This document shows, in pieces, positions 24,310 through 63,864 of a DNA stretch of 64,000 nucleotides (positions are counted from its first letter, which is position 1; each line of letters starts with the position of its first letter). The position numbers and the translations under genes were made by a program. Origin of the DNA: Haliotis asinina (lineage: Eukaryota > Mollusca > Gastropoda > Lepetellida > Haliotidae); contig NC_090283.1 in NCBI RefSeq assembly GCF_037392515.1, forward strand, positions 28,350,249 to 28,414,248, given 5' to 3'. The notes under the pieces are model-generated. The model was not told the origin of the DNA and made no database searches. It saw nothing but the letters and a program-made list of their open reading frames with translations.

Positions 24310-27300
24310 TCATGAACTCATTATTGTCAGAGAGCTGTTAAAACATGGCGTACCTTTGACCTTGGCACAGTAGCTCTCCTCTTCATTGGCGGTGCAAGCT
24401 TGCTTGTTGGGGTCAGCACTGAAGATGTCACCTCCGGTACATGTGGCATCCTGTTTCACACCACCCTTACACGTGTAGTACAGGTTACAGTTGTCGGGGT
24501 AGGTGGTGGGTCTTGGGACAGCTACACTATCAGTTGTACAGTCACATGGGGACACATCTGTAACAAGTTGACCAGCAGGCCTATGTCAACACACAATTTA
24601 ATAAGAAAGTTCTTGACGCAAGCAAAGCTGGCATTTGTGATAGCGAGTGAGTGAGTTGGCGGCGGGGGATACCAGAAATGGGCTTTTAGTTATGGAAGGA
24701 CGATATTTTGAGTATTTGCTCAGCTAATACAGTGTCATGTTTAGAGTAAACGGTCGCTGAAATTATTGTTCAATGCATCAAGGCATTAAATGACGTGAGG
24801 AACATTCGTTCTGCCTATATTTTTATAAGAGAGAGAGAGAGAGAGAGAGAGAGAGAGAGAGAAAGAGAGAGCGACAGATATATATATATATATATAGATA
24901 GATAGATAGATGAGTCTTTCACGATTGTTCGTGCACAAACATACATGTACCCACCTGTTGTGTAGGTGAAGATGTCACAGCCTTCCAGGTTGAGAGTCAT
25001 CCCTCCTGCATCTGTCAAGTAACAGCATATCTCGGCACCATCCCAAGAACGCTTAAACAGTTCTGTCACCTCGGATATCACAGACGATGAACATCCCTCT
25101 TTAGTCTTGATGTTAGACTGAGCACTGAAAATGTTCTCCATTATCTCGCCAGTGTTGAATAGCACTCTCCAGTGGAGGACAGTCGCCGGTTGTCCAAGTC
25201 TTCTCTCACAGGACAATGTTGCCTGCCATGCGTCACCGATAAGCTTTTCTTTCGTAATTTTTAGCGATGGCTTCTTGGGTTCAACTGCAAGAGAACCATA
25301 TCAAACCTAGAAATCAAAGAACCTTGTAGATAAAGTGGCAAAGTTAACGTTTCCTCTCAGTAGGAGACATTAGAAGTATATAGTCTGGGTCTGGGTCTGG
25401 GTCTGGGTCTGGGTCTGGGTCTGGGTCTGGGTCTGGGTCTGGGTCTGGGTCTGGGTCTGGGTCTAGGTCTGGGTCTGGGTCTGATTGCTGGACATGGCTG
25501 ATAGGCCACTTGCAGGTCATCTTCAGTCACAAGTCTCTCAATGATCTCATTTTGAAGAGATGTTGTTCGAAGACCAACTTTGGCAAAACAAAACAACGCC
25601 TAAAATGGGGTCTGTTTGATGCCTGAATGGAAACCACTGTTCCTCTGAAACTGGTCAAACCTCCGTCCAGTCGGCCAGTCAGCGGACTCCTTGTCTCCCA
25701 CCCATGCAATCAGCATGTCTTCGATGTCGAAGTTCAACATCTCCATAGAACCCGGGCTTTGTGGATGCCGAGGTTTGCAACCCATCATCAACAAATCAGG
25801 CCACAAGTTCAGAGAATAAACAAATATCTTCCAATGACGTGACATCAGGGATTACAGTTTCAACTGAGTGACTCAGACAATTTACAACTGACTGAAAATT
25901 ACAGGCAATTTATTAATTTGCTGATTTTAGACATTGACTGTAACATATAGACTTGAACACCATTACAGGAGTTGTTAAGAGAAACTGACGAAATTGAGTC
26001 TGTGAATGTAGCTGTGGAAGATATGATATTACAAAATGACTGATTTCACGCTCGTGAGCCCAGGTGGTAAAAATACGATTATGTGTCTCTATCATTTGTA
26101 GTATACCTGACGGAATGCTCAAATTGTCTTTCAATAATAATCAAAAGTACGTACCGAGTATTTTTACCGTGGAAGTAGTCTTGATAGTTCCAAACTCACC
26201 ACTTACTTGACACACATACTCTCCCGAGTCAGAGCAAGTAGCCCCTTTCTTTGTCAGTGAGCATTCTCTCCCATTAACACCAATGATGACGTCGTCCTTA
26301 AGTTCAATGCCATCTTTGAAAAACAAGACTTCAATAATTTTTGAGTCAACAGATACCGTACACAAGAGGTACAGGTCGTCCTCTCCCTCATTGAAGGTTA
26401 TATCTGACATTGTCAAATATGGAAGGGATGTAGTTGTAGTCGTCACTGCAGACGTAGTTATCCTCGTTGTCGAAGGTGTTGCTGTAGTGGATGACTGACT
26501 TGTTGGAGTTGATGCTGAAGATGCCGATGAAACAGGTGAAGTTGTTTGTGAAGTTGTTGATGTCGATTGTGGTGAAGATGAAACTGCAGAGGTGGAGGAT
26601 GTAGTGGATACTGCTGTTAGCGATGAAGATGATGCTGATGTAGACGATGTTGATGAAACCTGTGAAGTTTTTGGTGAAATTGTTGATGTCAATGGAGAAA
26701 TCGTTGATTGTGGGGAAGACGCAACTGCAGAGGTGGAGGATGCAGTGGATACTGCTGTTAGCGATGAAGATGATGCTGATGTAGACGATGTTGATGAAAC
26801 CTGTGAAGTTTTTTGTGAAATTGTTGATGTCAATGGAGAAATCGTTGATTGTGGGGAAGATGAAACTGCAGAAGTGGAGGATGCAGTGGATGTTGTTGAT
26901 GGCGATGACGCTAATGGAGAAGTTCTTGTTCTTGTAGATGACGTTGATGGATCTGTTGAAATGTATGATGTAGACAATGGTTGTGCTCTCGGTGTTAAAT
27001 CGGTTAGTAAGTTGGATTTACTTGATGTATCTGGATCTCTTCTTGTTGCAGTTGATGAAGCTTGGGGCTCTGAAAATACGACAAACAATACTTTGTTTTG
27101 TAAAAATGTATATCTCACTGGCAACAAGAAACAGTGTGAAGATTTTGTTATAGGAATATGCCAGGCATGCCGTCATACTTCTCAATAACAGCAAGCTATT
27201 GAGATTATATTTGTCGATATACATACATATATATATATTATTGAACTGTGCACGTCTCAACTCCTAAATCCAACAGAAGATTTGTATCAACAGTACTGGT

Positions 27301-63864: not shown

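Follow-up and report, generated by a model that had tools for sequence, protein, structure and literature searches.

Among the immune proteins named in excerpts of two reviews, the joining of immunoglobulin (Ig) and chitin-binding CBM14 domains is given as a protochordate design (PMC12074976, PMC13428168). Does a similar layout in an abalone, reminiscent of a gut-immunity protein of sea squirts, then reflect kinship with the protochordate VCBPs, and what might such proteins do? The question is raised by a stretch of 64,000 nucleotides (hereafter the window), which a first-pass annotation, made from the letters alone, had attributed to a mollusc and credited with a same-strand set of 'VCBP-like' receptors. 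The sequence is that of Haliotis asinina, so the mollusc call was right, and the set is likewise real: three minus-strand genes, here called A, B and C, each join Ig and CBM14 exons in frame within a single gene model, with AG/GT borders.

Three genes joining Ig and CBM14 exons

Coding sequence runs from 29775 to 20160 in A, from 45726 to 32331 in B and, within the window, from 63864 to 57610 in C; in A and B it extends past the exons marked in the first-pass annotation. Both corresponding NCBI models (P0003 for A and P0007 for B, on a contig of 83,060,790 bases) connect exons for the tail, the type II anchor, Ig and CBM14, and a query built from window exons matched P0003 of H. asinina at 100% identity over 266 residues. 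Judging from these models, which like the other NCBI models used here are predictions, the Ig and chitin-binding exons appear to belong to the same gene and not to separate transcripts. A tblastn search of the window for more Ig or CBM14 exons with ten domain queries at E 1 returned three weak matches (E 0.15–0.88), which we took as chance; Ig-CBM14 genes within the 64 kb thus number only three. Phase 1 at both ends, together with a length that is a multiple of three, was found for the exons of the second Ig-like domain (Ig2), the CBM14 exons, the A exon carrying the stalk and the first Ig domain (Ig1), and the inner exons of C; the Ig1 exon of B, which also carries the anchor, starts in phase 2.

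The six exons of A splice letter for letter to P0003 (590 residues), whose NCBI name, 'serine-rich adhesin for platelets-like', is a misnomer. They comprise a first coding exon (29689..29775, minus strand as throughout; MEPRQEYVNT..., 100% identical to P0003 residues 1–29), an exon with the remaining cytoplasmic tail and the membrane anchor (27601..27799; RRR before the hydrophobic segment), an exon with a Ser/Thr-rich stalk and Ig1 (26155..27069), an Ig2 exon (24955..25284), a CBM14 exon (24354..24557) and a last exon (ASEVKVCTATSK, stop; 20160..20197). The mucin-like stalk that had been described is present in A, where it spans 212 residues and is 60% Ser/Thr; the stalk of B is short. The last intron of A holds, on the plus strand, a 343-residue open reading frame (21810–22841) of a Tc1/mariner-like transposase, with a DDE_3 match and a Tc3-type helix-turn-helix under its cut-off, and a tandem array of a 64-bp unit lies at 23383–23968 (9.2 copies, 99% alike).

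The exons of B splice to P0007 (444 residues) provided that one member of an identical pair of 30-bp micro-exons is left out. A first coding exon (MTSP; 45713..45726) is followed by a second (44843..44920), an exon with a longer tail unit (RDLFDSRSAADNRPG; 39364..39408), an array of seven micro-exons (38031..39205; 27, 30, 33, 30, 30, 33 and 33 bp, with five of the six spacings at 169–175 bp) and a cytoplasmic-tail exon (RQQQEQDRDTGRTAR; 37312..37356). Then come an exon that combines a basic tail segment, the anchor, a short Thr/Pro stalk and Ig1 (36012..36505), an exon with a reduced second Ig-like domain containing 7 Cys (33686..33916), a CBM14 exon (32586..32789) and the last exon (AGEIRACSVPVG, stop; 32331..32368), all on the minus strand. 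Every micro-exon has a length that is a multiple of 3, with AG before it and GTGAGT after it, and the array lies within and beside a tandem repeat (38282–39401) with a period of 172 bp. The cytoplasmic tail is built of such units, for example SRCADDNRPG. Read by eye, the tail repeats of the B proteins are of the type RDLFDGRSTSDNRPG in H. rubra and RELQEGRDASDTGPR in H. rufescens, the units being similar inside one species and different across species. The NCBI name 'isoform X3' and cluster sizes of 19 and 13 fit, without proving, an alternative use of the micro-exons, and the array offers a compact system in which to study variation in cytoplasmic-tail length. Introns of B also contain pieces of another Tc1-like transposase (34326–35114, plus strand) and, upstream of the array, a fragment with a Tc3-type helix-turn-helix match (43278–43550, minus strand), beside which the frame at 42913–43158 gave no Pfam match.

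Gene C has nine exons in the window, which read in frame through 466 residues, hold two Ig and three CBM14 domains and end in DGSIEPCS and a stop; its 5' part lies past the window end, where any anchor of C would lie too. On the minus strand, these are a stalk and Ig1 exon (63481..63864; 86% identical to P0002, a C relative of H. rubra), an exon with a C2-like second Ig domain (62846..63178; 95% to P0002) and a first CBM14 exon (61708..61863; 76% to P0002). They are followed by a second CBM14 exon (60623..60838; 68–78% to the repeats of P0001, an Ig-less relative in H. rufescens, and 64% to P0002), a third (57893..58102; 62% to the last CBM14 of P0001) and a last exon (57610..57635), in frame and similar in its end to the P0001 C-terminus, DGNLQPCA. 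Three mini-exons encoding linkers, one Thr-rich (61391..61414), one Thr/Gly (60376..60411) and a third at 59698..59715, are placed by AG/GT borders and frame only, without homologue support. About 120 bases directly upstream of the Ig1 exon of C (63870–64000) recur at about 59100–59290 on the minus strand, in a later intron of C, and are nearly identical at first.

Relatives of the three genes are found in other abalones: P0004 (H. cracherodii) and P0005 (H. rubra) for A, P0006 (H. rufescens) and P0008 (H. rubra) for B, and P0002 for C, which begins at the stalk, has no anchor and may be an incomplete gene model. P0005 and P0008 are both on a contig of 1,419,201 bases, pointing to linkage of A and B in H. 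rubra too. No Ig domain was found in two further proteins, which differ in this from A, B and C: P0001, named 'endochitinase A1-like', which has six CBM14 domains and a type II anchor, and P0010 (H. cracherodii), which has two CBM14 domains. P0001 resembles C in its CBM14 domains (62–78% identity with the second and third C domains) and in its C-terminus, and its tail (residues 1–20) has an acidic stretch with YxxL (EEHEYQELFSI), which we take to recall hemITAM or endocytosis signals. A Pfam BiPBP_C match in P0001 was above its cut-off, but no stretch passes alone, and we took it as spurious.

No Ig-CBM14 relative outside Haliotis appeared among the protein matches listed (2 of 4443, 7 of 739 and 5 of 6221 candidates), in a search that relied on shared 5-residue words and length limits and that distant relatives elsewhere could escape. 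Besides P0011, a lone Ig2 on a short contig, the only non-Haliotis match listed was an Fc receptor-like protein of a sturgeon (E 3e-5), and its Pfam list is without CBM14. Between species, identity amounts to 81–84% for A Ig1, 80–84% for A Ig2, 69–84% for B Ig1, 70–86% for B Ig2 and, for the C domains of H. asinina and H. rubra, 86% for Ig1, 95% for Ig2 and 77% for the first CBM14; across the genes, CBM14 is at 77–91%. The Ig domains are thus about as conserved as CBM14.

The family is new, and combines known domains. That it had not been described, as the first-pass annotation supposed, agrees with the titles and abstracts of the open-access PMC literature, where no such protein was found among the matches listed, and the excerpts of PMC4757023, PMC6109156, PMC12074976, PMC5877582, PMC13428168 and PMC6007483 do not describe the A, B and C proteins. 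The sequences are already in databases as uncharacterised or misnamed predictions, and the present analysis corrects three misleading names: serine-rich adhesin, location of vulva defective and endochitinase.

Domain types, topology and the comparison with VCBPs

A Pfam search found both Ig and CBM14, as had been predicted, but not the V-like Ig that had been named. Ig1 is above the I-set cut-off of 23.7 in A (31.1 bits) and B (38.6 bits), and in C stays under the cut-offs (I-set 21.8; Ig_3 24.4 against 30); V-set was under its own cut-off wherever it was reported, in window exons and relatives alike. The outer core cysteines of Ig1 are 50 residues apart in A, B and C, with no Trp, and I-set is thus the better label. 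The second Ig-like domain held up in part. In A it takes an Ig fold in an AF2 model (pLDDT 53–75), and in C it gives C2-set_2 under the cut-off (16.3 bits against 21), but in B it is reduced; the Ig2 exons of A and B gave no Pfam match at E 1. Judging from a three-species alignment, the B domain departs from a regular Ig: it falls 33 residues short of its counterpart in A, and one absent stretch of 25 residues, missing in the H. rufescens and H. rubra versions of B as well, would hold the first core Cys and Trp. AF2 further gave Ig folds for Ig1 of A and for Ig1 and Ig2 of P0002 (Ig1 pLDDT 84–92), and the best Foldseek/VIA rows for the models were two-Ig modules of adhesion proteins, titin and B7/butyrophilin kin. 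Membership in the Ig superfamily is therefore indicated for Ig1 of A and B by Pfam and for both domains of A and P0002 by AF2 and Foldseek; B Ig2 fails.

The one to three chitin-binding domains claimed for these genes were recovered as one in A, one in B and three in C. Four of the five exons exceed the CBM_14 threshold of 22.1 in Pfam, with 25.9 bits in A, 26.8 in B, and 30.2 and 24.6 in C, and the third of C is under it (18.8 bits). When full proteins were scanned, CBM_14 was just under the cut-off in P0007 and P0008 and, at E 0.01, was not reported for P0004 and P0006. The motif PxxCxxYYxC is present in all eight rows of one aligned CBM14, in agreement with a CBM14/peritrophin-A assignment, and is replaced by PYSCQLWIEC in the first CBM14 of C; aromatic residues of CBM14 have a role in chitin binding. 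The CBM14 parts of the AF2 models of A and P0002 had a block pLDDT of 55 or less, and the nearest PDB sequence match of the A domain was, weakly (E 0.045), a chitin-binding beak protein.

A type II anchor had been proposed for two of the genes, and hydropathy and charge favour it for A and B. Each has a single strong N-terminal hydrophobic segment (Kyte–Doolittle mean of 3.57 in A and 2.11 in B over 19 residues), whose strongest window starts at residue 68 in A and 164 in B, behind a hydrophilic tail and with a net charge of +3 before it. The pattern recurs in all six of the proteins P0003–P0008, where the tail is about 65–190 residues long and the 15 residues preceding the anchor carry a net charge of +3 or +4. 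By the positive-inside rule, the basic side of an anchor is cytoplasmic, so that the basic residues and the long hydrophilic tail argue for type II orientation, a call made for A, B and their relatives from hydropathy and charge only.

Excerpts on VCBP-C describe a protein that has a signal peptide and, besides a pair of Ig-V domains, a single CBM14 (PMC6109156), with bacteria bound by Ig-V and chitin by CBM14 (PMC4757023, PMC6109156). The abalone proteins share with VCBP-C the two Ig-type domains followed by a C-terminal CBM14, and chitin at epithelia is a plausible ligand of both. Unlike VCBP-C, A and B carry an internal anchor that follows a hydrophilic tail, as judged by hydropathy, instead of the signal peptide of a secreted protein; Ig1 is best matched by I-set or Ig_3; B has a reduced Ig2, and C has three CBM14 domains. 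'VCBP-like' is therefore not supported as a statement of kinship. Descent from an ancestor shared with chordates would account for the same broad order of Ig, Ig and CBM14, but domain type and topology led us to reject it as extremely improbable; moreover, most of the domain exons begin and end in phase 1 and hence shuffle easily, and the protein search, limited in reach as it was, listed no Ig-CBM14 relative outside Haliotis. The absence of a VCBP chain among the listed Foldseek/VIA matches, which are filled by one domain, is no evidence either way. The likeness is thus likely a convergence. The occurrence of Ig plus chitin binding in a snail genus, with another Ig type and an anchor, suggests at least two origins, and this joining may be a recurrent answer to life against chitinous surfaces.

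Two other systems invite comparison. An excerpt presents the VIgL proteins of snails (FREP, CREP, GREP) as gastropod chimaeras in which Ig is joined to carbohydrate-binding domains (PMC12074976). The abalone proteins are such chimaeras too, and differ, in a comparison of domain content and not of FREP Ig sequence, by having CBM14 as the carbohydrate-binding part. The lectin parts of VIgL are fibrinogen-related, C-type or galectin domains, which Pfam at E 0.01 reported in none of ten proteins (P0001–P0008, P0010 and P0011). Dectin-1 and its kin, vertebrate type II lectin-like receptors, have a cytoplasmic N-terminus, a stalk and a carbohydrate-binding tip at the C-terminus, an arrangement that A and B probably share; in A and B, however, the tip is CBM14, Ig domains lie between, and no C-type lectin domain was reported.

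Near-identity of the A and B chitin-binding exons

The CBM14 exons of A and B in H. asinina are 91.5% identical in DNA, with a dS of 0.10 against 1.3–1.7 for the Ig exons. At silent sites, pS between A and B is 0.093 (95% interval 0.021–0.179) for CBM14, 0.672 for Ig1 and 0.616 for Ig2, and similarity drops within about ten bases of the CBM14 exon borders. Near-identity confined to this exon, next to diverged Ig exons, suggests that exon-limited gene conversion has likely acted between A and B.

Whether it acted repeatedly was judged from three lineages, with A of H. cracherodii and B of H. rufescens pooled as one, neither species having given both genes. With gapped columns excluded, 20 columns of Ig1 and Ig2 are diagnostic by gene and 4 by lineage, the corresponding counts for the CBM14 exon being 0 and 4 (Fisher p 0.0034); counting gaps as residues lowers p to 7e-6, but 25 of the 38 gene-diagnostic Ig2 columns are then gap columns. 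Three gene-diagnostic columns in the CBM14 alignment all fall in the last exon. A and B are separated in the Ig tree with a support of 100/100; in the tree of the CBM14 exon, A groups with B of its own lineage in all three cases, but weakly (75/85, 69/75, 81/90).

The low divergence could instead reflect one recent copying of the exon, which we regard as possible if on the unlikely side: an AU test did not reject the gene-wise grouping of CBM14 exons (p 0.122, 68 columns), the species-wise pairs are weakly supported, and the ungapped lineage-diagnostic columns number only 4. In all three lineages, however, A and B share lineage-private residues (these 4 columns, or 6 with gapped ones included), which is not expected from one old copying. 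Repeated conversion in several lineages is therefore suggested, not proven. Such homogenisation is a testable case in which ligand binding would stay shared as the other parts of a receptor diverge.

Possible functions at the cell surface

On balance, and without great confidence, we think it probable that A, B and probably C make up a family of Haliotis type II membrane glycoproteins that act as chitin-engaging tethers or sensors at the cell surface. What the sequences themselves contribute to this reading is the architecture, the orientation as judged by charge, the genus-wide conservation and the near-identity limited to the CBM14 exon. If expressed as modelled, each protein would have its N-terminus in the cytoplasm and one helix through the membrane, with a presumably glycosylated Ser/Thr-rich stalk, long in A and short in B, raising the ectodomain. 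Ig-type modules would follow the stalk, with one or more CBM14 domains at the free C-terminal tip. The tip would grip chitin, be it that of the animal's own gut, mantle or periostracum, where the genes might be active, or that of microbes or food; the Ig part might bind a partner protein or a second copy of the molecule, and the tail, which differs by gene, could couple such binding to the cell by signalling. Conversion would have homogenised the CBM14 exons of A and B and thereby kept their chitin-binding tips nearly alike, while the Ig part, anchor and tail diverged.

A tether or sensor at a chitinous barrier was judged likelier than a dedicated pathogen receptor, because the Ig1 type is common in adhesion proteins and Ig is about as conserved as CBM14. 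Immune pattern-recognition receptors, in which Ig would bind microbes or parasites, CBM14 microbial or fungal chitin, and the tail would signal or mediate uptake, have a precedent in the VCBP-C excerpts cited above, on which this idea rests, and the acidic YxxL tail of the Ig-less P0001 would suit it. We nevertheless consider it unlikely: Ig1 is an I-set domain that varies between species about as little as CBM14, the scanned parts of the B tail have no tyrosine in three species, no tyrosine of the A tail starts a YxxL in three species, and there are only three genes in the window. It is more improbable that the products are mainly shed or secreted matrix mucins, with the anchor cleaved and the Ig-CBM14 part released into mucus, peritrophic or shell matrix. 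The long stalk of A, the several CBM14 domains with Thr-rich linkers in P0001 and C, and the lack of an anchor for C inside the window would agree with this, but the anchor and long cytoplasmic tails are kept in both A and B, in three species each.

Extending the tether or sensor reading, we tentatively propose, as a possibility rather than an expectation, a receptor class private to abalones and convergent on VCBPs, whose neighbouring genes repeatedly convert one chitin-binding exon and one member of which tunes its tail length through alternative use of a species-specific micro-exon array. If true, Ig modules, anchors and tails would diverge while the chitin-binding exon stays shared among neighbouring genes.

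Two further features accompany these genes in the window, both on the plus strand: likely exons of a gene for an NAD-dependent epimerase/3-beta-HSD-like dehydrogenase (3304–4985) and, in neighbouring frames at 48585–49720, zf-H2C2 and integrase core matches under their cut-offs together with DUF5641 above its own, a set that we take to be that of a BEL/Pao-type retroelement.
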